Origin: an uncultured bacterium
GTDB lineage: Bacteria > Bacillota > Clostridia > Lachnospirales > Lachnospiraceae
Direction of reading: 5' to 3'
Length of the DNA: 47,259 nucleotides
Assembly: GCA_905215155.1 (NCBI GenBank)
Contig: CAJMPJ010000027.1
Location: forward strand, 1-47,259
Shown: piece after piece, positions 4,229-47,259 of the stretch
How positions within the stretch are numbered: the first letter of the stretch is position 1
How the letters are laid out: every line of letters starts with the position of its first letter
Made by a program: the position numbers and the translations under genes
The notes under the pieces: model-generated
Told to the model about the DNA's origin: nothing
Databases searched by the model: none
Seen by the model: only the letters and a program-made list of their open reading frames with translations

Positions 4229-5170
4229 CTACTTAAGCATTTGAATTCGTGTCTGGTTTTGCTGCCGTTGTTGACCTGTTATTGGCCCCGTTTGAGAAGT
4301 GACGGGTCCGGCAGGTCCGGTTGCAGGAGGGGTAACTCCATCAGGCCCAGTTGCAGGCTCAATACCCGGTCCAGGACCAGTAAGCGGCATGGTTGGTCCT
4401 GTCACAAGCGGAAGGGAAGCAGGCGGTTGTGTTACAGGAGCAGGAACGGTTGATTCTGTTTCCGGGGCAGGGACCGCACCTGGTCCTGCGACCGGAGCTT
4501 GTTCCGGAGGTGTTACAGGAACCGGTGTATCTCTGTTTTTAATGGTATTAATGCACTGAGTGTAAAGCTCGTCTGCTCTTTCCCAATTAACAACGTGAAA
4601 CCAATCCTCTATGTATGCAGCACGGTCATTGAATCTCTTTAAATAATAAGCATGCTCCCACACATCAATCCCTGCGACAATGCAGTAACCCTCTGTCAAG
4701 GGAGTATTCTGATTCGGGGTTGTGATTATTTCAAGATTTCCATTCGGAGCGACTACCAGCCAGGCGAAGCCTGATCCAAACACGGACAAAGCTCTTCTTT
4801 TAAATTCATTAAAAAACTCCTCCAGTGTTCCGAATCTCTCTATGAGGGCAGGATACAGGGACTCGGCTATGGAACGGTTCATAGAATTGGTCATGCCGTT
4901 AAAATATAAAATATGATTGTAAACTCCCCCGCCATAATTGATAATGGACTGCCGGACTTCTTCAGGAAGGTTTTCCGGATGAGATATCAGTTCTGGCAAA
5001 GATAAGTTCTGCAGTTCAGGATAATCCCTTAAAATCGCATTGAGTTCAGCCACATACCTCTGTAAGTGTCTGTCATGATGAAGGTACATGGTTTGTGTAT
5101 CAATATAAGGCTCCAGAGCGTCATAGGCGTACGGAAGCGGAGGATTCACAAATGGGTAATGTTCGTTCAT
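4229..5170 (-). CDS. Mn/Fe superoxide dismutase with long Pro/Gly/Thr-rich tail
   Basis: Residues 1 to about 212 form a complete Fe/Mn superoxide dismutase that disproportionates superoxide. The metal ligands His31 (LHHDRH), His86 (YNHIL), Asp169 and His173 (DVWEHAYY) are all present. Gln154 (NQNTPL) is in the position typical of Mn enzymes. Residues about 214-313 are an unusual low-complexity tail built of Pro, Thr, Gly and Val (TGP-type motifs) ending in a Gln-rich stretch. Ordinary SODs stop near 200 residues. The tail resembles surface or spore-coat protein regions, so a coat or exosporium location is possible but unproven. AAAGGA precedes ATG 5170. Confidence 0.88.
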   Translation of the reverse strand: MNEHYPFVNPPLPYAYDALEPYIDTQTMYLHHDRHLQRYVAELNAILRDYPELQNLSLPELISHPENLPEEVRQSIINYGGGVYNHILYFNGMTNSMNRSIAESLYPALIERFGTLEEFFNEFKRRALSVFGSGFAWLVVAPNGNLEIITTPNQNTPLTEGYCIVAGIDVWEHAYYLKRFNDRAAYIEDWFHVVNWERADELYTQCINTIKNRDTPVPVTPPEQAPVAGPGAVPAPETESTVPAPVTQPPASLPLVTGPTMPLTGPGPGIEPATGPDGVTPPATGPAGPVTSQTGPITGQQRQQNQTRIQMLK

Positions 5171-37543: not shown

Positions 37544-37583
37544 TATTAGAAACTTTTCAGTAGTGAAAGGAGTCATACATCCT

Positions 37584-38573
37584 ATGGATCGTTATGCGAA
37601 ACAAGGGTATCCCGGTGGGTATCACCGCACCGGTACATCCCCATGGGAGCCTGTCATGGGGCTTGATATGTCAATGAGCCCGGGAACGGTCATTCGTCCT
37701 GACATGCCGCTTGGTTCGGGTCCGGCTAAATCTGCCGAGCCAGTACCTTCTTCTATCCCAATGAGCCGCCAGGAAATGCCAGCAGGCCCATGTCCCTGGT
37801 ATCCGGTCAAAAGACCTGTGTGTCCGGAGACCGACAGTGCCTCGGATGTTCCACCAATGCCGATGAAATGTCCGGAAAAACCGTCCTGTGTAAAGCCGGT
37901 GAAATGCCCGGAAAAACCGTCCTGTGTAAAGCCGGTGAAATGTCCGGAAAAACCGTCCTGTGAAAGACCAATGAAAAGCCCGAAGATGCCGTCTTATGTA
38001 ATGCCGATGAAATGTCCGGAAAAACCAGCATATGAAAAACCATCGTGTGAGAAACCGGCATGGGAAAAACCATCGTGCGAGAAACCAGCATGGGAAAAAC
38101 CAGCTTGCGAGAAACCAGCATGGGAAAAACCATCGTGCGAGAAACCGGCGTGGGAAAAACCAGCTTGCGAGAAACCGGCATGGGAAAAACCATCGTGTGA
38201 GAAACCGGCATGGGAAAAACCATCGTGTGAGAAACCAGCGTGGGAAAAGCGGTCATGTAAAAAACCAGAATGGGAAAAACCGGCGTGTGAGAAACCGGCA
38301 TGGGAAAAACCGGCATGTGAGAAGCCGGCATATGAAAAGCCGTCCTGTACAAAGCCTGTGAAATGTCCGGAAATGCCTTGCACTAAAGCTCCTGGCGTAT
38401 CTCCGGTTCCGGCAAAAACAGCAGGTGAATGCATCGACAAGTATCCCATTGCAATGGCTTATGTGCCATGGCAGTGCTGGCAGGAGGTTTACTCCGTTGA
38501 TGTGGCATTAAGCATGGGAACCATTTTCCCGGATTTATTTAAGCCATTTACGATGGGAGGGTGCCGGTCATGA
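37584..38573 (+). CDS. cotJA: CotJA spore-coat protein fused to Cys/Pro/Lys/Glu repeats
   Basis: A 329-residue protein. The C-terminal about 45 residues (YPIAMAYVPWQCWQEVY and on to GTIFPDLFKPF) are the CotJA domain, normally a protein of under 100 residues. Before it lie about 170 residues of tandem repeats: about five 12-residue units of KCPEKPSCVKPV type, then about ten 10-residue units of CEKPAWEKPS type. The N-terminus is Pro/Gly/Met-rich. Regularly spaced Cys suggest disulfide or other cross-links in the coat. AAAGGAG precedes ATG 37584. Its stop overlaps the cotJB start (ATGA). Confidence 0.85.
   Translation: MDRYAKQGYPGGYHRTGTSPWEPVMGLDMSMSPGTVIRPDMPLGSGPAKSAEPVPSSIPMSRQEMPAGPCPWYPVKRPVCPETDSASDVPPMPMKCPEKPSCVKPVKCPEKPSCVKPVKCPEKPSCERPMKSPKMPSYVMPMKCPEKPAYEKPSCEKPAWEKPSCEKPAWEKPACEKPAWEKPSCEKPAWEKPACEKPAWEKPSCEKPAWEKPSCEKPAWEKRSCKKPEWEKPACEKPAWEKPACEKPAYEKPSCTKPVKCPEMPCTKAPGVSPVPAKTAGECIDKYPIAMAYVPWQCWQEVYSVDVALSMGTIFPDLFKPFTMGGCRS
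37862..38020 (+). repeat. 36-bp tandem repeats in cotJA
   Basis: About four to five copies of a 36-bp unit of the type AAATGYCCGGAAAAACCGTC plus its remainder, encoding KCPEKPSCVKPV-like units. Later copies are degenerate. Confidence 0.75.
38030..38350 (+). repeat. 30-bp tandem repeats in cotJA
   Basis: About ten copies of a 30-bp unit (key block GAGAAACCRGCATGGGAAAA) encoding CEKPAWEKPS-like decapeptides. They are nearly identical in the middle and degenerate at the ends, so recent expansion by slippage is likely. Confidence 0.9.
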
Positions 38574-38839
38574 GTTGTAATTGTAATGTTGATTGTAATA
38601 TGTTGCTAACGCAGGTTTATAATGCCAGCTTTGCAATGGATGATGTGGTTTTATATCTTGATACCCATCCGGATGACAAAGATGCTTTAAATTATTATCA
38701 TTATGTAACAGATTTAAGGGAGCAGGCACTGCAGGCGTATGAGGAACAATGCGGTCCTCTGTTAGCGGAAGGCGTCAAGGATGACAACTATTGGACCTGG
38801 ATTCAGGATCCCTGGCCCTGGGAAGGAGTGTGCGGCTGA
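38570..38839 (+). CDS. cotJB: CotJB spore-coat protein
   Basis: An 89-residue protein. The family block is FAMDDVVLYLDTHPDDKDALNYY followed by PWPWEGVCG, here cited by YLDTHPDD and PWPWEG. The N-terminus is Cys-rich (MSCNCNVDCN), unlike most CotJB proteins. ATG 38570 lies 8 nt after GGGAGGG and overlaps the cotJA stop. Its own stop overlaps the cotJC start (TGATG), so the three genes are translationally coupled. It is an inner-coat component. Confidence 0.9.
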   Translation: MSCNCNVDCNMLLTQVYNASFAMDDVVLYLDTHPDDKDALNYYHYVTDLREQALQAYEEQCGPLLAEGVKDDNYWTWIQDPWPWEGVCG

Positions 38840-38930
38840 TGTGGAGATATGAAAAAAGATTACAGTACCCCGTAAATATTACCACTCCGAACCCTAAGAT
38901 TGCTACATTTATTATGAGTCAGTACGGTGG
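38839..38930 (+). pseudogene. cotJC: cotJC 5' segment (codons 1-30), interrupted
   Basis: ATG 38839 begins a typical CotJC (manganese-catalase family) N-terminus: MWRYEKRLQYPVNI, then PNPKIATFIMSQYGG. CotJC-like sequence stops at the GGTGG core (38926-38930). The open frame then reads only PFCNNR and a stop. The normal continuation PDGEMGASMRYLSQRY is found at 42421 onward, in the same frame. This is therefore a split rather than a simply truncated gene. CotJC would be a mother-cell spore-coat Mn catalase whose first metal Glu lies after the break. Confidence 0.9.
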
Positions 38931-38960
38931 ACCGTTTTGCAATAACAGATAAACATACGA

Positions 38961-38996
38961 AGGGGGATATGCTCTTTCGTTTCTATGTATCCCCCT
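38961..38996. other. Hairpin just inside the left end of element 1
   Basis: AGGGGGAT (38961-38968) and ATCCCCCT (38989-38996) form a perfect 8-bp stem between the left core and the recombinase 3' end. It may act as the recombinase terminator, although T-runs are weak. Confidence 0.5.
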
Positions 38997-39025
38997 GATT
39001 ATAATCAAATTGTTATGAATTCATT

Positions 39026-40483
39026 TTAAGAAGCGATATAGTAGAAGAATTTAAGTTTATTTTCTTCTTTGTCGTAAACAATTTTTTTAATTACACTTCG
39101 CAATGCCTTTCCTTTTGTTGCATTATCTGCAGCCGGATCGGAAAGAAGATCATAGGCATTCTGCAGCCTGGAGGCAAGCTGTAATTCTTTGGCTGTTTTT
39201 TCCATGGCCTGTATGCTTTTTAACTCTTCAAGCCTCATTTTCAAATCATATTTTTCCTTTTCCAGGCGTTCTTTGTGATTTTTATATTCGTCCAGAGAAT
39301 CAACCCCTTTTTCATATGCATCTCTGATTCGGAGCATTTTTAATGGAATTTTTGATAGTGCTGCTTTTATCAGTTCCATTTCACTGGTTTTATAGGAGCC
39401 GGAAGACCGTACATATTCGTACCGGTTTCCAGTAGTTATCAGAGCTTTTCTCAGTGATTCCAGAATCAGGGCCTCCGCTTTTTGTGCGGTGATGCTGCAG
39501 GATTCCTTATGAAGGCCTTTGGAATACCGCCAGCACTGGAAACAGCCGCCGCCAGAACCGTTTTTGGAGGCTTTATTAAATCCCAGACTTGCACCGCAAT
39601 AGCCGCACCTTAAAAGGCCGGATGCCCAGTGCTTGCAGTCTGATGCTTCCCGCCTGCTTTTGGGACGGTATTCCTGTTTCAGACGTATTTGGTTTTCCTT
39701 AAAAACTGAGGTAATGGAGCTTCTTACTTCGTGGGAACCCTGAAAAGAGATGTCTTTCCATGTAACGATGCCATTGTAAAAATTATTTTTTAAGATTCGC
39801 TCAACGGAACGCCGGTCAAACGGATTGCCTCTTTTGGTCAGATAGCCCCTTTGGTTTGCAGCTCTCGCAATGGCTGATAAATCCATTCCGTCATGATAGG
39901 CCTGATGGATGAATTCCACGATTTGATACTCCTCTTCATTAATGAGAAATGGTTTTCCGCCTCCGGCCGCCTGATAACCAAGGCAGGGCGAGGTCTGATA
40001 TCCTTCTCGCAATGCTTTTTCCGTCATTCCTCTGGTAACCTCGCCGGAGAGATTAAAGGAATAGTATTCGTCAAACCATTCAATGATGCTTTCGATTAAC
40101 CGGCCAAACATACCATCCATAATGGGTTCCGAAACGCTTTTTATTGTTACTCCGCATTTTTTTCTAAGTACACTTTTATAAAAGGTGCTTTCCTCCTGGT
40201 TTCTTGCAAAACGGGAGAACTTCCAGAGGTAAAGATACTGAAAGGGAGAGGGCTGGGACTTGGCGATGGAAATCATTTTCTGGAATTGTTTCCGGTTGTC
40301 GGCGCGCCGGCCGCTGACTCCTTTTTCTTCTATAAATATATATTTTTCCGGTATGAGGATTCCGTCGGCTTTTGCTGCTTTTTTTATCTCCCTCAGCTGG
40401 GCGGCGGGAGATAGTTCCGTCTGATCGTTTGTACTTACCCGAACATAGGCGGCACCGATTCCAGGCATTTCTTTTTCTTTCAA
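39026..40483 (-). CDS. Large serine recombinase 1 (cotJC element)
   Basis: A 485-residue large serine recombinase. The catalytic domain has Ser17 in AAYVRVSTNDQ and the Arg motif LYLWKFSRFARN. A recombinase domain follows (GMTEKALREGY..., about 150-260), then a zinc ribbon with RCGYCGASL and later Cys, and a C-terminal coiled coil (about 370-450). Its 3' end is about 95 bp from the left core, matching the usual link between such genes and their attachment site. The TTG start at 40483 follows AGAAGTGA; ATG 40468 is an alternative. It should excise the element, possibly only during sporulation. Confidence 0.92.
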   Translation of the reverse strand: MKEKEMPGIGAAYVRVSTNDQTELSPAAQLREIKKAAKADGILIPEKYIFIEEKGVSGRRADNRKQFQKMISIAKSQPSPFQYLYLWKFSRFARNQEESTFYKSVLRKKCGVTIKSVSEPIMDGMFGRLIESIIEWFDEYYSFNLSGEVTRGMTEKALREGYQTSPCLGYQAAGGGKPFLINEEEYQIVEFIHQAYHDGMDLSAIARAANQRGYLTKRGNPFDRRSVERILKNNFYNGIVTWKDISFQGSHEVRSSITSVFKENQIRLKQEYRPKSRREASDCKHWASGLLRCGYCGASLGFNKASKNGSGGGCFQCWRYSKGLHKESCSITAQKAEALILESLRKALITTGNRYEYVRSSGSYKTSEMELIKAALSKIPLKMLRIRDAYEKGVDSLDEYKNHKERLEKEKYDLKMRLEELKSIQAMEKTAKELQLASRLQNAYDLLSDPAADNATKGKALRSVIKKIVYDKEENKLKFFYYIAS

Positions 40484-40575
40484 ACATTATCACTTCTTTC
40501 CGGTTATGGCTTAGGAAAACAAGGAAACAAGTACAATCCGTGTCACATACATTTTACCAGGAAGGGGGGGAAAAT

Positions 40576-40764
40576 ATGTTAAAAAACCCGGAAATTGAAA
40601 ATTACATAGAATTAAACGGTGAAGAAATTCCCATAGATTCTCTGCCAGAAGAGAGACGAAAAGAGCTTGCAGGGATGCTTGAAGAAAAAATCATGGAATC
40701 CGCAGGATTAAAACGGATTTATGCATACAGAAAGCCTATAAAAGGGAGGAAGCCGGCGGGATAA
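40576..40764 (+). CDS. 62-residue hypothetical protein (candidate excision factor)
   Basis: A small charged protein (MLKNPEIENYIELNGEEIPI, ending in basic RKPIKGRKPAG) divergent from the recombinase gene. GAAGGGGGG lies upstream. No family was recognised. Small basic-ended proteins next to serine integrases are sometimes directionality factors, so that role is possible. A terminator overlaps its stop codon. Confidence 0.6.
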   Translation: MLKNPEIENYIELNGEEIPIDSLPEERRKELAGMLEEKIMESAGLKRIYAYRKPIKGRKPAG

Positions 40765-40781
40765 GGAACATCCTGCCGGCT
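40751..40781 (+). terminator. Terminator after the 62-residue gene
   Basis: AGCCGGCGGGAT (40751-40762) pairs with ATCCTGCCGGCT (40770-40781), 12 bp with one G-U. The T-run is weak. Confidence 0.6.
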
Positions 40782-40936
40782 GAGTATGAAAAAGTTTTTA
40801 TGAAAAAGGTTATCACCTTTTATGAGTTTTAATATACCAGAGGGATGTGTCTATATTTTGTTGAAAGTGTGAAAAAATTGTGAAAGGAAAACCTGCAAGT
40901 CAAGATACTTTGATTTTGAGAATAGGAGAAGGAGGA

Positions 40937-41344
40937 ATGGGTCAAAATGTAATGGAGAGAAACAAAAACATTACGGAACAAAAGGAGAAAGCATTGAAAA
41001 GAACAGTAGTTTTTGATTTTGACGGTGTGATTCATAGTTATGTGAGCCGTTTTACAAGTGCTGAAATCATTCCGGACGAACCGGTTGACGGAATCAAAGA
41101 GGCAATTGATGAAATCCGAAAGGCAGGATATGTAGTGGCAGTGGTATCCTCCAGAGCGGCAAGTGAAGAAGGAAAAGCTGCAATCCGGAAGTATTTGGAC
41201 AGATACGGAATTCGTGTGGACGACATCACCTGGAAAAAGCTTCCCGCAATCTGTTATATTGATGACCGCGCCATCTGCTTTCGCGGAGACACGTCTTCTT
41301 TATTGAGCCAGATCCGATCCTTTCGACCCTGGAATAAGAGGTAA
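40937..41344 (+). CDS. HAD-superfamily phosphatase-like protein
   Basis: About 135 residues. HAD motif I is FDFDGVIHSY, motif II is VVSSRAASEEGK with its Ser, and motif IV is YIDDRAICF. It is compact, without a large cap. Similar small HAD proteins are common in phages and mobile elements, where they act on nucleotides or nucleic-acid ends. ATG 40937 has AGGAG 8 nt upstream; TTG 40994, preceded by AAAGGAG, would give MKRTVVFDFDG and is an equally good start. It is element 1 cargo. Confidence 0.75.
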   Translation: MGQNVMERNKNITEQKEKALKRTVVFDFDGVIHSYVSRFTSAEIIPDEPVDGIKEAIDEIRKAGYVVAVVSSRAASEEGKAAIRKYLDRYGIRVDDITWKKLPAICYIDDRAICFRGDTSSLLSQIRSFRPWNKR

Positions 41345-41347
41345 AGC

Positions 41348-41378
41348 AATGCCCCGGTCGAGAAAAGCCAGGGCATTT
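41348..41378. terminator. Bidirectional terminator between HAD and DUF3298 genes
   Basis: AATGCCCCGG and CCAGGGCATT pair with one mismatch between convergent genes. T-runs are modest on both strands. Confidence 0.6.
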
Positions 41379-41383
41379 GGTGT

Positions 41384-42043
41384 TTATTCTATGGGAGAAC
41401 AGTTTTTAAATGGAAAGAAAAACTCTGGAATTCCGGTCGAAAACGGAGCAATGTCATACTGCTGGTAATAAATAACAATGCCGTCAGGGGTAACGTAAAA
41501 ACTTTCTATGCTAAAATTGCCCCGAACAAGGGAAGGAAAGTCTTCAAAATAAGTAGAGGGATTTGCTTTTTCCCTTCCCGTTATCTGCTTATTGATTTCC
41601 GAAATAATAAATTCTGTAAATGTTTTTGAGTTGGGAAAATAATCCGAAAGTTTTAATTGATTGCCGGTCTCAAAATCCCATGTCTGAGAATCCCTCACCG
41701 TATCTCCATGAGCTCCGCCCAGATAAGTGTATTGGTCTGTAAAGAGACTGGTTACACAATTCTCGTTGTATGTAATTGTATAAACGGATAGGAATTCATA
41801 GCTGTTAAAGGGGAACTGGTGATCCGATGCATACATTGCCTGTTCTACGGCTTGCTGATACAATACGTTCCGGCAATAGTCTTCTTTTTGTTTGGCCTGA
41901 TAGTTGTAGTAGTTATTTACATACGTTGCGGATGCCTGGCTGCAGGTGGTGGTAAAGTTGGGATAATGAATGGTATAGGTCAGAACGGGCACACCCTGAT
42001 GAAGCATGGTATCCGTAAGTATTCTATCAATGATATTCTGCAT
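41384..42043 (-). CDS. DUF4163/DUF3298 domain protein
   Basis: A 219-residue protein. The C-terminal half matches DUF3298 (FTDQYTYLGGAHG, FETGNQLKLSDYF, YVTPDGIVIYYQQYDIAPFSTG). The N-terminal half resembles DUF4163 (YTIHYPNF). These domains occur in PdaC and RsiV-type proteins, which bind cell-wall or lysozyme ligands. There is no signal peptide or membrane segment, so it may be cytoplasmic or spore-associated. Ribosome site is weak (GAGG). It is cargo of element 1. Confidence 0.75.
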   Translation of the reverse strand: MQNIIDRILTDTMLHQGVPVLTYTIHYPNFTTTCSQASATYVNNYYNYQAKQKEDYCRNVLYQQAVEQAMYASDHQFPFNSYEFLSVYTITYNENCVTSLFTDQYTYLGGAHGDTVRDSQTWDFETGNQLKLSDYFPNSKTFTEFIISEINKQITGREKANPSTYFEDFPSLVRGNFSIESFYVTPDGIVIYYQQYDIAPFSTGIPEFFFPFKNCSPIE

Positions 42044-42181
42044 AAGAGCCTCAAAAAAGGATCGTTTTTATAATATATGGATCAGCTTTTGCATTTATGT
42101 AAGTTTATAAAGAGCAAACGGAACCCATGGTTTTTACATATTTCCCCCGCATTGGGACAGACTAAATTTGAGGTGATAACA

Positions 42182-42358
42182 ATGGAAAAAGACAAGAAGA
42201 ATGAGCAAACTCCAAAAAAACAACAGGAGTCAGATAAGAAACCGGAAACCTTTCAGGATCACTGGCAAACCGGAACGTTTTTGGGACCTAATACTTTGAG
42301 ATATGAAGAGAACAGAAGAGTGTACGAAGAAGAGGATTCCAAGAAAAACGATTTCTAA
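42182..42358 (+). CDS. 58-residue hydrophilic protein (element 1 cargo)
   Basis: A Lys/Glu/Gln-rich protein (MEKDKKNEQTPKK ... DHWQTGTFLGPNTLRYEENR) without recognised family. GAGGTG lies 7 nt before ATG 42182. It lies just inside the right end of element 1, followed by a strong hairpin. It could be a spore protein or a recombination accessory protein; neither is shown. Confidence 0.6.
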   Translation: MEKDKKNEQTPKKQQESDKKPETFQDHWQTGTFLGPNTLRYEENRRVYEEEDSKKNDF

Positions 42359-42362
42359 AAGG

Positions 42363-42393
42363 CAGGAGGAAGCTGGTCAAGGGCTTCCTCCTG
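42363..42393 (+). terminator. Terminator near right end of element 1
   Basis: CAGGAGGAAGC (42363-42373) and GCTTCCTCCTG (42383-42393) are a perfect 11-bp stem; a T5 run follows after 9 nt. It ends transcription before the right core. Confidence 0.65.
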
Positions 42394-42415
42394 TGAATAT
42401 CTGTTTTTACAATCA

Positions 42416-42523
42416 GGTGGGCCGGATGGAGAAATGGGTGCCTCCATGCGTTATCTTTCCCAAAGGTATGCGATGCCTTATAAGGAGTGCAAAGGACTTT
42501 TGACAGATATCGGAACAGAAGAA
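42416..42523 (+). pseudogene. cotJC: cotJC middle segment (36 codons), bounded by two interruptions
   Basis: The frame continues CotJC from the core: GGPDGEMGASMRYLSQRY, then MPYKECKGLLTDIGTEE. The Glu after DG and the EE of GTEE are ligand positions of the di-manganese site. After GTEE (42523) the expected LAHLEM-type sequence is absent; the frame reads TVLHGYRSRASNVLKW and stops. A second serine recombinase gene ends 30 bp away. The remaining C-terminal part of cotJC is not present in the window. Confidence 0.9.
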
Positions 42524-42553
42524 ACGGTCCTTCATGGATATCGGTCAAGGGCG

Positions 42554-44146
42554 TCAAATGTCCTGAAATGGTAATTTCAAGTACACGTCAAGGGTGAAGC
42601 AATCCACTCCATACCCAAGGCGTGTGCCTTTTTTTGTTTTGGCATAAAATACATGATCCACAACCTGTTTTAATAACGCATTCTTTTGGAGCGGATCTTC
42701 TGTTTGTGTATAGGATTTTAAAATGTTCTCAAAGTGGGGGATACACTGTTCTTTGCGGACAATGCGCTGCTGTATATCTGAAATTTCTCTATCTATTTGT
42801 TCTAGGGATTTTTTGTTTTCCTCAATCTTTTTTGTCAGATCTCCAGACCGTTTCCGGAATAGCTCCAAAGAGTATAACTTCTGTTCAAAGTAATCATAAA
42901 CAGTATCCAATTGGTGTTGGAGTTTGTTCTCCTCATTGGTGAGGTTGGATCGCATTGTCATTTTTCGCTCCAGAACTTCGTTCCAATCGTTGAAATTCTC
43001 CCCTTGAATTTTTATTTTGTATTGTTTTAAGGTATCTTTTAAAAATTGAATCAGACGTTCTTCCACCAGGTAGTAAAAAGAGCCTACGGTAGGGCAGCCG
43101 TGGGTTTTGCAAAGAAACGTATCCGTGGCGTTTTTTTTCCCTGCAGGACGGCGGTATAGAATCCTTTGACATTCGCTGCAATAGATCAGCCCTGCCAAAG
43201 GGGATTTGATGGTGGAACAATTGGTGGGACGGAAGCTGGCTTCCATTTTTCGTTTGGCAGCATAAAATAGGTTTTCTTTAATAATAGGCGGATGTATCGC
43301 GTCAAAGATTTCCGGATTTGCATTGACGGGACGGGAGAGCTTCACTACGCCGTTTTCTATGGTTTTTATCTGCTTGCGCTTGCCCACTTCCAATTTGCCT
43401 ATGTATGCATAATTTTTTAAAATCCCCTTTATTACACCTGTTTCCCAATGATCCGATTTACGGGGGAGGACATTCATATCATCAAGCAGGTGGGCGATCT
43501 GGGCTGCTCCCATAGGCAGGTTGTCTGATTCGGGAGTTCCTTCTGTGAAAAGCTGGAAAATAAACTGGACAATCGTTGCTTCATCTGGAAGCGGTTTTAA
43601 GGTATAGCCTTTTTCCCTTGGAAGTTTTATCCGCTCATATCCATAGGGAGCTACATTGCCGATCCATTTTCCTTCTTTGGAGGAGGCACGGCGGCCGTTT
43701 TGCAACCGGCGGTTGATGATCTTGTATTCCCTGCGGCTCATGAAGAGACCGAATTCCGCATATTCTTCGTCAAACTCATCGTTGGGGTCGTAGGTTTTTA
43801 TTGGGGTGATGATTTTTGTGTTTCCGTATTTAAAGGTTTCCATGATTAGCCCCTGGTCCCTGGTATCCCCACGGGCTAGACGTTCCAGTTCTACCACAAG
43901 AACACCCTCCGGCTGTTCCCTTTCGATATCTGAGAGCATACGCATCATCTCTGGCCGGGCGGCAATGGTTTCACCGGATACCACTTCCCGGTATACTTTA
44001 GAAATCGTTATTTTTAGTTGTTCTGCCAGTTCTTTCAGCCGGTTTTCATGCCTTGCCAGGGTTTCTCCCTCACCATGGGATTCTGCCTCCCGGTCTTCTC
44101 TGGATTTACGAAGGTACATGTAATAAATTCCTGTTGGGTCAAGCAT
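42554..44146 (-). CDS. Large serine recombinase 2
   Basis: A 530-residue large serine recombinase, unrelated in detail to recombinase 1. The catalytic Ser is in YYMYLRKSREDRE, followed by VVELERLARGDTRD and the recombinase domain NGRRASSKEGKWIGNVAPYGY. A zinc ribbon follows (YCSECQRILYRR, then CKTHGC), and then a long coiled coil (about 410-490). AAGGAG precedes ATG 44146 by 8 nt. The 3' end lies 30 bp from the second break in cotJC, implying that this enzyme made and could reverse that break. Confidence 0.93.
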   Translation of the reverse strand: MLDPTGIYYMYLRKSREDREAESHGEGETLARHENRLKELAEQLKITISKVYREVVSGETIAARPEMMRMLSDIEREQPEGVLVVELERLARGDTRDQGLIMETFKYGNTKIITPIKTYDPNDEFDEEYAEFGLFMSRREYKIINRRLQNGRRASSKEGKWIGNVAPYGYERIKLPREKGYTLKPLPDEATIVQFIFQLFTEGTPESDNLPMGAAQIAHLLDDMNVLPRKSDHWETGVIKGILKNYAYIGKLEVGKRKQIKTIENGVVKLSRPVNANPEIFDAIHPPIIKENLFYAAKRKMEASFRPTNCSTIKSPLAGLIYCSECQRILYRRPAGKKNATDTFLCKTHGCPTVGSFYYLVEERLIQFLKDTLKQYKIKIQGENFNDWNEVLERKMTMRSNLTNEENKLQHQLDTVYDYFEQKLYSLELFRKRSGDLTKKIEENKKSLEQIDREISDIQQRIVRKEQCIPHFENILKSYTQTEDPLQKNALLKQVVDHVFYAKTKKGTRLGYGVDCFTLDVYLKLPFQDI

Positions 44147-44185
44147 GATATCATCTCCTTGTATAGTTTACTTGATTTAGGGTAC

Positions 44186-44233
44186 AAAAATGAGGGTAAA
44201 AATCCTTTTGTGCGGATTCCTACCCTGATTTTT
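44186..44233 (-). promoter_or_regulatory. Long inverted repeat upstream of recombinase 2
   Basis: AAAAATGAGGGTA (44186-44198) and TACCCTGATTTTT (44221-44233) pair over 13 bp with one mismatch; inner AATCC/GGATT continue the stem. On the minus strand the 3' arm ends in a T-run, so it could be a terminator or attenuator limiting recombinase expression. Confidence 0.55.
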
Positions 44234-44318
44234 AGCATACCTTAATGAGTTTTATTTCTAAAAAGATTGGCTTGGTTTGCTATAATTATTAGTGGTGTAT
44301 TTTTTTCTTTTTTACACG

Positions 44319-44357
44319 AAAAAGGAGCCATTGCTCCATAAGTGATAGCTCACTTAT
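44319..44357 (-). terminator. Terminator after the four-helix Cys-rich gene
   Basis: On the minus strand GGAGC/GCTCC followed by T5, preceded by a second hairpin, ATAAGTGA/TCACTTAT. Confidence 0.7.
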
Positions 44358-44381
44358 TTTGCAACGGCCCCCACGGGTATC

Positions 44382-44720
44382 TTACATTGCTTTGCATTCG
44401 GAGGCACATTTTTTGCATTCATCCGCACATTGCTGACAATGTTCATCTTTAAATTGTGTGCACCCGGCAGCACATTCTTCACAGATGGAAGCACATAGCT
44501 TACAAAATTCCCTGGCGTGCTTTCCATTCATGGTCATCAGGCAAGCCGCTTCTTTACAAACACTTGCACACTCCATCATCATAGAAATATGAGTGGTTCT
44601 CTGGGCAACATCTGGCTCTTGTAAACATAATACAGCACATTCATGGCATGCCTGAAAACAGCGCAGACACGCATCAATGCACGACTGGTAGTTGTTTAAT
44701 GGTTTTCCTACAATACTCAT
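44382..44720 (-). CDS. Four-helix-bundle Cys-rich (Csp1-like copper-storage) protein
   Basis: A 112-residue helical protein with about 17 Cys in CxxxC/CxxC patterns (SCIDACLRCFQACHEC, CASICEECAAGC, CQQCADECKKCASEC). This matches the four-helix-bundle copper-binding (Csp/DUF326) family, which stores Cu(I) inside the bundle. ATG 44720 is chosen, with AAAAGGAG about 10 nt upstream; a GTG at 44741 overlaps that site. No signal peptide, so cytoplasmic. Confidence 0.85.
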   Translation of the reverse strand: MSIVGKPLNNYQSCIDACLRCFQACHECAVLCLQEPDVAQRTTHISMMMECASVCKEAACLMTMNGKHAREFCKLCASICEECAAGCTQFKDEHCQQCADECKKCASECKAM

Positions 44721-44794
44721 TGATTCAAAACTCCTTTTCACTATTTTTAGTATTGTCTGCTTAACCAGCCGAAAATATTCATTTTAAAAATACA

Positions 44795-44985
44795 TGAGGA
44801 AATTCATGCAGTAAGATATTGAAAGACGGGCAGGCGACGCAATTGGCACCTGTTTTGGCGAATACACAAAGCTGGGGCTGAACATGGCAAGAGCTGCCGC
44901 CTCTCAATTCTGAAACATCTGAAAAACCTTGCCGACAGGGAACTTACGAAAACGGAAGGTGCCACGCGAGAAAATCTTATATAAG
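44795..44985 (+). pseudogene. Probable gene remnant, unidentified
   Basis: One frame reads RRAGDAIGTCFGEYTKLGL then NMARAAASQF and stops. An overlapping frame continues HLKNLADRELTKTEGATREN then LI and stop. The stretches look protein-like with normal codon use, but no start or ribosome site is present and the frame breaks near 44910. No family could be assigned. Confidence 0.35.
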
Positions 44986-45543
44986 TGACGGCGTGAGTAC
45001 GAATAAAACATGGGTCGATTGGTCAGTTTTATTCATAAAACGATGCCTCACATTTGGAGGAATGCGAACGACATCTCCTTCCTCTAAAAAATACTCAACC
45101 TTCTCTAATTCCACAAATACCTGCCCTTTCATAACAACAGCAATCTCTTCTTTATTGGAATGTGAGTAATAGCTTTCTGTGGTACTGGAGTGTGCATTTA
45201 AATCCATTATTAGAAGTTCAATGTGTGCTTTCATAAAATCAGGTGTTAGTACGTCATATACAGTGTGGTCGCTATTTTCCCTATAGATCTGTTTACGATC
45301 CTTTTTTCTTGAAATAAGCGATTTAGTATCTATATCGTTTATAAATAGAGTATAAAGAGGAACGTTTAATGCAGCCGCCAGCAACTCTAACACATTTAGC
45401 GATGGATTGGCCTCTCCCCGTTCAATTTGGCTGATTAACGATGTACTAATTCCAGAATACCTGGAAAACTCTCTTATCGTCATTTCCTTTTTCTTTCTGT
45501 AGCTTAATACCGTTTGACCTAAACGGTAATGGTTCATGAACAC
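44977..45543 (-). CDS. XRE-family regulator with C-terminal cupin domain
   Basis: A 188-residue protein. The HTH is at about 8-62 (MTIREFSRYSGISTSLISQIERGEANPS), and a cupin sensor domain follows (KEEIAVVMKGQVFVELE, EGDVVRIPPNVRHRF). Regulators of this layout control amino-acid or polyamine uptake and efflux genes. It is divergent from the EamA transporter gene about 160 bp away, its likely target. Confidence 0.88.
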   Translation of the reverse strand: MFMNHYRLGQTVLSYRKKKEMTIREFSRYSGISTSLISQIERGEANPSLNVLELLAAALNVPLYTLFINDIDTKSLISRKKDRKQIYRENSDHTVYDVLTPDFMKAHIELLIMDLNAHSSTTESYYSHSNKEEIAVVMKGQVFVELEKVEYFLEEGDVVRIPPNVRHRFMNKTDQSTHVLFVLTPSLI

Positions 45544-45706
45544 TTCCCCTTTCCGGTATAATACGGTTTTTTAACGATTTGTGCTAACATAACGGAAACA
45601 CATATTAAAGCTGTTCTTTCATGAGAATCCGTATTATAATTATCTTGTAAATTATATTGTATCACATGTTTTATATAGTACAAAGAAGAATAAGGAGATA
45701 AATAAT

Positions 45707-46639
45707 TTGATAGCTAAAGCTGGTATTTTCTTTTCATTATTCATTGGCGTATTTTCATTGTCTACTTCTGCTATTTTTGTGAGAGCAGCAAACGCTTCTT
45801 CTGCTATTACAGCTTTTTATCGTTTACTTTTTACTGTGTTAATACTTTTACCTTTTTTGCTGCTTAGCAAAAAAAATAGAACTGCATTTCTTGGCTTATC
45901 AAAAAAGCAATTGGGGTTGGGCTTTTCTTCAGGCCTGCTTTTAGCCGTTCATTATATGTTATGGTTTGAATCATTGAACTACACATCTGTTGCCAGTTCG
46001 ACTGCCATAGTAACATTACAGCCGCTTTTTTCCATAGTGTTGAGTTATTTATTTCTTAAAGAGCGTTTAGGGAAACTAACCTTGCTTGGTTGTCTTATTT
46101 CTATAGCGGGTTGTTTCATCATAGGTTGGGGAGATTTTCAAACGAGTTATCGGGCGTTATTAGGGGACTTGTTAGCTTTTTTGGCTGCGGCAATTATTAG
46201 TCTTTATTTTTTTATCGGGCAGATTAGCCGAAGAGATACTCCTTTAATTCCATATTCCATTACTGGCTATATGAGTAGTGTTGTATATTTGGGACTATAT
46301 GCTTTCATTGAGCATAATTCTTTTACTCATTACCCGGTATCAACGTGGAAAGCTTTCTTGGGATTAGCTCTAATTTCAACAATTTGTGGCCAATTCATCT
46401 TTAATCTTTTATTAAAGTGGGTATCAGCTTCCACTATATCAATGAGCATCCTGGGGGAGCCTATTGGAACCTGCATTTTAGCGTACTTTATTTTAAATGA
46501 AGGAATTAATTTCCAACAAGGTGTAGGAATTTTTATCATTCTAGTTGGTCTATTAATATTTTTTTTACCTACAAAATCAATGGGAAAGAACAAGCAGGCA
46601 CTTAATACTGTAAAATTTCAAACGCAGAAGCACCCGTAA
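45707..46639 (+). CDS. EamA/DMT-family transporter
   Basis: A 310-residue membrane protein with ten predicted helices in two EamA repeats (TSSITAFYRLLFTVLILLPFL-type segment near the start; LGEPIGTCILAYFILNEG near the end). It exports or imports small metabolites, often amino acids. The TTG start at 45707 is 8 nt after AAGGAG. The gene is notably AT-rich compared with upstream genes. It forms a small operon with the following cupin gene. Confidence 0.87.
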   Translation: MIAKAGIFFSLFIGVFSLSTSAIFVRAANASSAITAFYRLLFTVLILLPFLLLSKKNRTAFLGLSKKQLGLGFSSGLLLAVHYMLWFESLNYTSVASSTAIVTLQPLFSIVLSYLFLKERLGKLTLLGCLISIAGCFIIGWGDFQTSYRALLGDLLAFLAAAIISLYFFIGQISRRDTPLIPYSITGYMSSVVYLGLYAFIEHNSFTHYPVSTWKAFLGLALISTICGQFIFNLLLKWVSASTISMSILGEPIGTCILAYFILNEGINFQQGVGIFIILVGLLIFFLPTKSMGKNKQALNTVKFQTQKHP

Positions 46640-46684
46640 GCAGCAACAATATCTAAATTTATTATATACCAGGAGGAAAAGAAA

Positions 46685-47044
46685 ATGGATAAGATTAACT
46701 TTGAGGAAAAATTTCAGCTTTTCAATGATTACTGGAGTCCTAAAATTATTGGAGAACTGAATAACGCTTATGTGAAAATTGCTAAGTTTAAGGATGAATT
46801 CACTTGGCATGTTCATGAAAATGAAGATGAAATGTTTCTTGTCGTAAAAGGGGTACTAACAGTGAAATTCAGAGATAAAGACGTATGTTTGCAGGAGGGG
46901 GAAATGCTCATTGTTCCGAAAGGAACGGAGCATATGCCTGTCGCTCCCGAAGAGGTTCATGTGCTTTTAATTGAACCCAAAAGCACACTGAATACCGGAA
47001 ATGTCGTAAACGATAAGACCGTTGAAAAACTTGAAAGAATATGA
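46685..47044 (+). CDS. Cupin-domain protein
   Basis: A 119-residue single cupin. The metal motifs are WHVHENEDEMFLVVKG (His, His, Glu) and PKGTEHMPVAPEE (His). It lies downstream of the EamA gene with its own AGGAGG. The function may be an isomerase, dioxygenase or sensor. The cluster of XRE-cupin, transporter and cupin suggests one detoxification or efflux module. Confidence 0.85.
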   Translation: MDKINFEEKFQLFNDYWSPKIIGELNNAYVKIAKFKDEFTWHVHENEDEMFLVVKGVLTVKFRDKDVCLQEGEMLIVPKGTEHMPVAPEEVHVLLIEPKSTLNTGNVVNDKTVEKLERI

Positions 47045-47060
47045 TCAAACAATAAAGCTG

Positions 47061-47114
47061 TTCACAGCGAAAAAATTATGTATTATAATCAGGGATTGTA
47101 TCGGCCGATACAAT
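47061..47114 (+). promoter_or_regulatory. Promoter with 20-bp palindromic operator
   Basis: TTCACA (47061-47066), 17-bp spacer, TATAAT (47084-47089). A perfect 20-bp palindrome, ATTGTATCGGCCGATACAAT (47095-47114), begins at the expected transcription start. This is the position for a dimeric repressor. The regulated gene lies beyond the window. Confidence 0.65.
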
Positions 47115-47168
47115 TCAATTTAACCGCCAGATTATAACTATTGGCAGGTTAATAAATGCACTTTTAGG

Positions 47169-47208
47169 GGCCTTCCAATGGCAGTATGCGGTTGGAGGGC
47201 CTTTTTTT
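47169..47208 (+). terminator. Leader terminator near the right edge
   Basis: GGCCTTCCAA pairs with TTGGAGGGCC, followed by T7. It lies about 75 nt into the transcript from the 47061 promoter, so it may attenuate the next operon or end a short RNA. A preceding hairpin, AACCGCCA/TGGCAGGTT (about 47119-47151), is also present. Confidence 0.7.
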
Positions 47209-47259
47209 ATGGGCTTTAGCCTGTTGAACATGGGTGAGTTTCTTTTTAAGAGAAATGAA

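Follow-up and report, generated by a model that had tools for sequence, protein, structure and literature searches.

In a 47,259-nucleotide stretch of DNA from an uncultured member of the Lachnospiraceae (GenBank assembly GCA_905215155.1, contig CAJMPJ010000027.1; hereafter the window), the spore-coat gene cotJC has two interruptions. Element A, 3,490 bp long, lies at codon 31 and encodes its own large serine recombinase; a second recombinase-bearing element, element B, lies at codon 65. It is probable that cotJC is a gene in pieces, from which both elements are excised in the mother cell, with the frame rejoined and a coat manganese (Mn) catalase made. The window DNA is 87% identical over 2.9 kb to Clostridium sp. 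HBUAS56010, and it stands close to the genus Lacrimispora (Lachnospiraceae).

cotJC is the third gene of the operon cotJABC. It starts at 38839 and is cut at codon 31: the 5' piece (38839..38930, + strand) holds codons 1 to 30 plus two bases of codon 31, which belong to the left core, and the middle piece (42419..42523, +) holds codons 31 to 65 and matches the manganese catalase family NF052557 (5.3e-5). The two GGTGG cores of site A, one in the left attachment site attL-A (38926..38930, +; placed from the sequence and a table of junctions across loci) and one in the right attachment site attR-A (42416..42420, +), lie 3,490 bp apart, as read directly and confirmed by a second calculation. Core to core, element A occupies 38931..42420. 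When the flanks were joined in a script, the frame was restored, reading ...MSQYGGPDGEMGASMRYLSQRY... and ...SQYGGPDGEMGASM..., in agreement with the original prediction of an in-frame split by a serine-recombinase element of about 3.5 kb with cores at 38926 and 42416. That prediction had also placed inverted half-sites around the core GG. The left inner half-site of attP-A, TTGCAATAACAGATA (38937..38951, +), and the right one, TATCTGTTTTTACAA (42398..42412, +), are indeed inverted copies of each other, though imperfect ones, and similar half-sites are found in related loci; the 14 bp between them center on the last GG of GGTGG, which forms bases 1 and 2 of codon 31. As in skin-type elements, removal of element A restores the frame, a direct-repeat core is flanked by inverted arms, and the element encodes its own large serine recombinase.

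The same break recurs widely. Scanning the genome collection with the element A recombinase, LSR1, returned 48 loci, in 44 of which (43, plus L023 retrieved with another query) cotJC is broken at site A beside an LSR1 relative. The remaining four LSR1 loci are L003, L035, L037, and L043, the first being an element alone whose end overlaps a contig with the rest of the gene. Even beside LSR1 relatives of about 36% identity, in bins of uncultured Bacilli and Clostridia, the same cotJC codon is used, and the site-A half-sites are similar across genera, with exceptions such as L046. With this break and half-sites of similar sequence present at dozens of loci, the site-A break is not a chance feature. 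Comparison with related genomes bears out the predicted position. A precise, frame-restoring interruption with the exact ends proposed is backed by the sequence itself, dozens of homologous loci, and, as described below, attP junctions in other genomes and the purifying selection seen on the displaced 3' part. Among 25 genomes of the genus, read by hand, both site-A pieces are present in 15 (G001, G002, G004 to G009, G011, G025, G040, G081, G082, G087, and G090), whose number does not include G079, with its single break at site B. In G078, G083, G088, and G089 this cotJC is whole. The possibility that the pieces were wrongly joined during assembly has to be weighed, since the window is a single sequence without reads and a frame-shifted N-M join at the end of a G080 contig shows that such errors occur. 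The break is nevertheless found in dozens of assemblies, complete or multi-megabase contigs among them (G008, G010, G081, G082, and G087), and we give an artefact next to no credence. Where one fetched locus spans both sides, site-A elements measure 2.5 to 9 kb; the longest by genome coordinates reach about 36 kb (G034) and 87 kb (G010). Apparent sizes of 6,498 and 9,280 at L002/L098 were set aside as tandem copies, not single elements, and L117/L135 (size 1), considered as an empty site, was not counted, being the frame-shifted G080 join.

The prediction of an intact reconstructed gene did not hold for element A alone. The joined frame runs to GTEE (codon 65) and then leaves cotJC, continuing into foreign TVLHGYRSRASNVLKW up to a stop, and CotJC of uninterrupted relatives has 202 residues. 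The tail (codons 66 to 202 of those relatives) was not found within the window by tblastn. Comparison with G079, a relative with element B only, and with G025 and G013 places the core GA of site B (attL-B) at 42521..42522 (+), as bases 1 and 2 of the Glu65 codon; inverted half-sites surround it. The left part of element B fills the window from 42523 to 47259, with its recombinase, LSR2, at 42554..44146 (-; PF00239 and PF07508), and the right end and the cotJC tail would lie past the window. LSR2 relatives of 42 to 80% identity adjoin a break at or near codon 65 in seven genomes (G006, G007, G013, G025, G050, G074, and G079), and the distance to the resumed tail in relatives is about 2.8 kb (G013), 6 kb (G025 and G079), or 41 kb (G007). 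The window's cotJC is therefore at least doubly split, like that of G006, G007, G013, and G025; with element B at codon 65, removing element A alone yields no whole cotJC, and two excisions would be needed.

Several further features of site B and its elements were seen. In some genomes the break lies a few bases away and other recombinases are present (G050 and G077), the pieces at L091 and L092 meeting at a slightly shifted point around GGTACAGA/GTEE. Behind LSR2 in the window (44382-47041) are genes for a Cys-rich DUF326-like protein, a helix-turn-helix (HTH)-cupin regulator, an EamA transporter, and a cupin, which may be element B cargo. The element B cargo of G079 and G025 (L083, 5389-7050; L082) includes a subtilase (PF00082) and open reading frames (ORFs) that by eye resemble a sigma factor and an anti-sigma factor.

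Split cotJC genes are common in the family. We surveyed an even sample of 299 genomes, in 182 of which the protein family scored above cut-off; fragments were read by hand, including those of 43 genomes with a weak or borderline best match, and pieces on different contigs were counted. In at least 51 of the 182 genomes, cotJC pieces meet at one of three sites, A, B, or C (about codons 31, 65, and 136), with site A used in at least 22, site B in at least 24, and site C in at least 10. At least five genomes are doubly split, at A and B (G013, G018, and G309) or at A and C (G014 and G022). The figure of 51 is a lower bound, because genomes with a whole paralogue are only partly represented in full. 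Genomes with a single piece or no clear meeting point (G058, G063, G012, G131, G099, G225, G219, G259, G115, G279, and G096) and those with weak matches only (G065 and G180) were left out of the count. Many genomes with a split copy also have a whole cotJC-type paralogue, preceded by a cotJB-like gene (L049 to L073).

The insertion sites fall on notable codons of the protein. By manual counting, CotJC Glu35, Glu65, His68, Glu136, and His169 align to residues 35, 66, 69, 148, and 181 of 1JKU, the Lactobacillus plantarum Mn catalase, which we take to be its metal ligands; a literature search gave no confirmation of this assignment. Site B lies inside the Glu65 codon, site C inside the Glu136 codon, and site A four codons before Glu35, and at all three sites the core supplies bases 1 and 2 of a codon. 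With sites at or near presumed metal-ligand codons, the integrases land on DNA that is among the least variable in the gene. Inteins and homing introns likewise land in the most conserved catalytic motifs and active-site codons of their hosts; unlike them, the cotJC elements would be removed at the DNA level, by site-specific recombination.

The elements could be plain selfish insertions at conserved codons, in which case this cotJC would be dead and the whole paralogue would do the work. Such a paralogue is present in many relatives, the cotJC tail is absent from the window, and cotJC-type mutants of Clostridioides difficile show little coat phenotype, according to the accessible parts of PMC11222575. 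The displaced part of the gene argues otherwise. Over codons 33 to 197, behind element A, the ratio of nonsynonymous to synonymous differences per site (pN/pS) is 0.063 among ten site-A-split genes (45 pairs), near the 0.050 of four uninterrupted genes (6 pairs); for codons 1 to 29 the values are 0.071 (split) and 0.056 (uninterrupted). In the closer split pairs, silent differences outnumber replacements by 57 to 6 (G081/G087) and 43.5 to 4.5 (G004/G011), and the uninterrupted pair G088/G089 has 6 silent and 3 replacement differences. The displaced 3' part of cotJC is thus under purifying selection. Fragments that stand beside a restored or second copy are, in contrast, truncated or deleted. 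In G078, cotJC is whole, no LSR1 was found, and the remaining element lies behind the gene together with an old 3' cotJC fragment that stops at codon 81 and reads GGLDGE instead of GGPDGE; in G003, a second tail fragment begins at site B and carries deletions. Both fragments look like past repairs of a split gene. On this evidence, selfish insertion into a dead gene seems quite unlikely.

Junctions that point to recombination were found in several assemblies. In Clostridium sp. Marseille-P2415, two copies of the element (2 of 3,255 compared bases differ) are joined core to core by attP. An attP of the element A family is also present in a viral contig (L120), where it was found by a looser pattern among loci with LSR1; a stricter pattern scan found no joined attP in viral contigs. 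The [Clostridium] aerotolerans contig NZ_JHWJ01000039.1 (3,417 bp) consists of the element core to core, with GGTGG at both ends; at its end it shares a 95-base overlap with a contig that carries cotJC. It would thus be an assembly-graph node requiring both the integrated form and an attP junction, in a circle or in tandem copies. No [Clostridium] aerotolerans contig with the 5' piece was found, the search of G003 for cotJB plus the 5' piece yielding a paralogous operon only. In G002 (L098 and L155), element A is present in tandem copies with repeated cotJB and cotJC 5' piece, and the element in feoB described below also forms a tandem repeat; these may be true duplications or an assembly effect.

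Element A encodes five ORFs. Besides LSR1 (39026..40483, -; PF00239, PF07508, and PF13408, for Resolvase, Recombinase, and Zn-ribbon domains; integrase family phrog_95), these are a 62-amino-acid (aa) protein that we call S62 (40576..40764, +) and three cargo genes, for a HAD-like hydrolase (40880..41344, +; HAD matches below curated cut-offs), a PdaC/DUF3298 (RsiV-like) protein (41384..42043, -; PF13739 and PF11738), and a 58-aa product (42182..42358, +). The PHROGs search of the five detected no phage structural family: LSR1 matched an integrase, the HAD-like ORF matched phrog_1238 and others, and three ORFs had no match. Domain searches of the same five detected no relaxase or conjugation domains.

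S62 is the most widely shared neighbor of LSR1, occurring in 20 of the 48 genome loci and in 8 of 14 loci with LSR1 relatives on viral contigs. The PdaC/DUF3298, 58-aa, and HAD-like ORFs occur in 11, 10, and 4 of the 48 genome loci, respectively, and in none of the viral ones. S62 lies beside LSR1 in the minimal Lacrimispora elements and kilobases away in some long elements. An alignment of 23 family members has three invariant columns. S62 had no match in Pfam, PHROGs, or NCBIfam; its predicted structure, a beta hairpin plus a helix (mean predicted local distance difference test score [pLDDT], 82; predicted template modeling score [pTM], 0.52), had no significant match in the PDB. From its conservation beside LSR1, S62 is a candidate recombination directionality factor.

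Upstream of S62 lies a promoter-like block, AACAAGTACAATC-N7-CATACATT (40526..40553, +), the single match in the window at three or fewer mismatches (0.02 expected). The corresponding pattern, AACARGTACAANC-N7-CATACANT, is present with at most 3 mismatches of 19 specified positions upstream of 30 of 32 S62 relatives (L041 has 4 mismatches and L124 has 7). As a control, all ORFs of at least 60 aa in these loci were scored, 3,573 in total; only 3 have the block at this threshold, and all three are S62. The block travels with S62, not with LSR1. Within the genus, at two or fewer mismatches, it also precedes an ORF of about 54 aa in element B of G079 and G025, an ORF of about 49 aa in the feoB element of G002, G008, G011, and G078, and, in G089, an S62-like ORF that lies near a recombinase resembling LSR1. 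Across the family sample, the block was found at no more than one mismatch in 7 of 150 genomes. A 35- to 55-aa ORF (ATG, GTG, or TTG start) follows in 6 of 7 family matches outside G001, and two of these ORFs are the S62 of site-A elements. One locus returned by the family-wide motif search, L164, looks like a chance match, and a same-type promoter considered before cotJA was rejected, since the gene upstream extends into the conserved sequence at that position, which has no proof value. The -10 part, CATACATT, is sigma-E-like by the consensus that we take to apply, and a sigma-K reading (AACA, 16 bp, CATA) is also possible. The block also contains AACAAG, a box that resembles the core of the SpoIIID site of C. 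difficile, given as KRTAACARK in PMC5025042.

The block also bears on whether excision is linked to sporulation at all, as opposed to stochastic, prophage-type excision in growing cells, through a phase switch or an ordinary phage cycle. In its favor, some relatives of element A are as large as prophages (about 36 kb and 87 kb), 14 come from viral contigs, and attP junctions turn up both in a viral contig and in assemblies of ordinary genomes. However, minimal elements retain LSR1, S62, and a few cargo genes, and the block shows almost no variation in front of S62 and is found again ahead of small ORFs in other elements. We regard stochastic excision as unlikely.

Developmental excision of element A during sporulation, suggested by the sequence and strengthened by the block before S62, could proceed as follows. 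Elements A and B would stay in place during growth and in the chromosome that the spore receives, and would be excised only in the dying mother cell. Site-specific recombination between the att sites of each element would carry out the excision and rejoin the frame exactly each time. LSR1, with S62 as directionality factor, would remove element A, and LSR2 with a further factor would remove element B. The timing would depend on when the small factor is transcribed, from a promoter of mother-cell type (-10 CATACATT plus the AACAAG box) under sigma-E/SpoIIID control. Since a recombinase, a small factor, and a conserved block are all present, the scheme fits the plan of the C. difficile skin element. 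There, the recombinase is made constantly and a 72-aa factor under sigma-E and SpoIIID restricts excision to the mother cell, as described in the accessible parts of PMC5025042.

Several points weigh against excision of both elements in the mother cell. The tail lies outside the window, and in the window's strain the gene is possibly dead; the whole paralogue in many relatives leaves control of a coat Mn catalase by the element unproven. In the part of element B that falls within the window, neither the promoter-like block nor a recognized directionality factor is present, and S62 itself was found in only 20 of the 48 genome loci. The block pattern was drawn from the same S62 relatives that were then scored with it, and its -35 part mismatches what we take to be the sigma-E consensus. 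No excised attB was seen for the window's strain, of which the window DNA alone was searched, or in the G003 contig graph, and the attP junctions may stem from tandem copies or from outside sporulation. In the selection analysis, synonymous divergence (dS) is close to saturation in many pairs. The ratio of nonsynonymous to synonymous divergence (dN/dS) of the decaying fragments is still low, at about 0.09 (G078) and 0.11 (G003), which implies that the fragments are young; their decay consists of truncation and deletions. One uninterrupted pair (L089/L090) reaches 0.14. Lastly, the C. difficile cotCB and cotD mutants are reported to have no significant coat defect (PMC11222575).

A comparable split was observed in feoB, which is divided at its NQHTG/TGNWPGKT motif by an element of about 2.4 kb with another serine recombinase and an ORF of about 49 aa behind the block (L157, 1241-5039, in G011; L155 in G002); at L154 (G078) and L158 (G008) one side only of the element was seen. 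In G011, the feoB pieces, covering FeoB_N positions 2-27 and 25-154, flank an element with a Resolvase-type recombinase. We tentatively propose, with somewhat less than even confidence, that the Lachnospiraceae cotJC resembles a gene with DNA introns that can be removed. Serine-integrase elements of at least three kinds would use sites at or beside its catalytic glutamate codons, up to two at once. The cotJC-A, cotJC-B, and feoB elements would share, or have converged on, one promoter signal before dissimilar small directionality proteins, and a single mother-cell signal would trigger all of the excisions.

The minimal element has a traceable history. In the LSR1 tree, the 15 minimal elements of the genus, including the window's, form one clade (support, 100/100), which adjoins the 87-kb Hungatella element and L120, whose recombinase is close to the Hungatella one. 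Other small elements (L013, L025, L027, L028, L046, and L047) lie elsewhere in the tree. Among named phage records there are distant relatives only (best identity, 35.6% for LSR1 and 44.0% for LSR2). Distances between LSR1 proteins and between the adjoining cotJC 3' pieces are correlated across 11 loci (Mantel r, 0.936; none of 5,000 permutations was as high). Both the clade and the correlation would follow from a single origin of the minimal element and its later inheritance with the operon. For the minimal element of Lacrimispora we infer a prophage-like ancestor that used site A.

Upstream of the split gene, the operon begins with cotJA (37563..38573, +; PF11007 CotJA, 1.4e-17), which has a long Glu-Lys-Pro repeat region, followed by cotJB (38570..38839, +; PF12652 CotJB, 9.4e-30). 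Elsewhere in the window, an Fe/Mn superoxide dismutase (4229-5170, -; PF00081 and PF02777) with a Pro/Gly/Thr-rich collagen-like tail is possibly a spore-surface protein.

Excisable elements in the sporulation genes sigK, spsM, spoVFB, spoVR, gerE, and yabG are already known. According to the accessible parts of the respective sources, the C. difficile skin element (recombinase CD1231, directionality factor CD1234) is also a serine recombinase element that splits a mother-cell gene, but its target is sigK and it has 19 genes, compared with a coat enzyme gene and five ORFs for element A (PMC5025042). The gin element in gerE of Bacillus cereus ATCC10987, a non-phage intervening element whose excision requires the serine recombinase GirC and the 42-aa GirX, is 28.6 kb long with three recombinases, whereas element A is 3.49 kb with one (PMC5595907). 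SPbeta in spsM, vfbin in spoVFB, vrin in spoVR, and yin in yabG are likewise excisable and sit in sporulation genes; unlike element A, they are prophages or have phage-related genes aboard and use other targets, and the portions of the sources consulted do not mention two elements in one gene (PMC4191935, PMC10747680). The attR of prophage phi027 in C. difficile R20291 adjoins cotG, a CotJC-like gene; cotG is placed downstream of attR, and no split gene is described in the accessible parts of these reports (PMC11222575, PMC12122855). Our literature search, in which subscription journals were mostly outside the coverage, found no earlier report of a split cotJC or of cotJC as a target. New are cotJC as the target, the small size of the element, three sites in one gene, double splits, and a common block before dissimilar small ORFs.

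If mother-cell excision is correct, then developmental DNA excision would be frequent throughout a family, in which at least 51 of the 182 genomes have cotJC in pieces, instead of being confined to a few model strains. With one recombinase and a factor of about 50 aa, a 2.5- to 3.5-kb element would represent a minimal excision system passed on by inheritance, well suited to studies of directionality. The conserved block offers a sequence handle for finding more excisable elements and split genes, as with feoB, and genes of spore formers that are annotated as broken may be whole in the mother cell.

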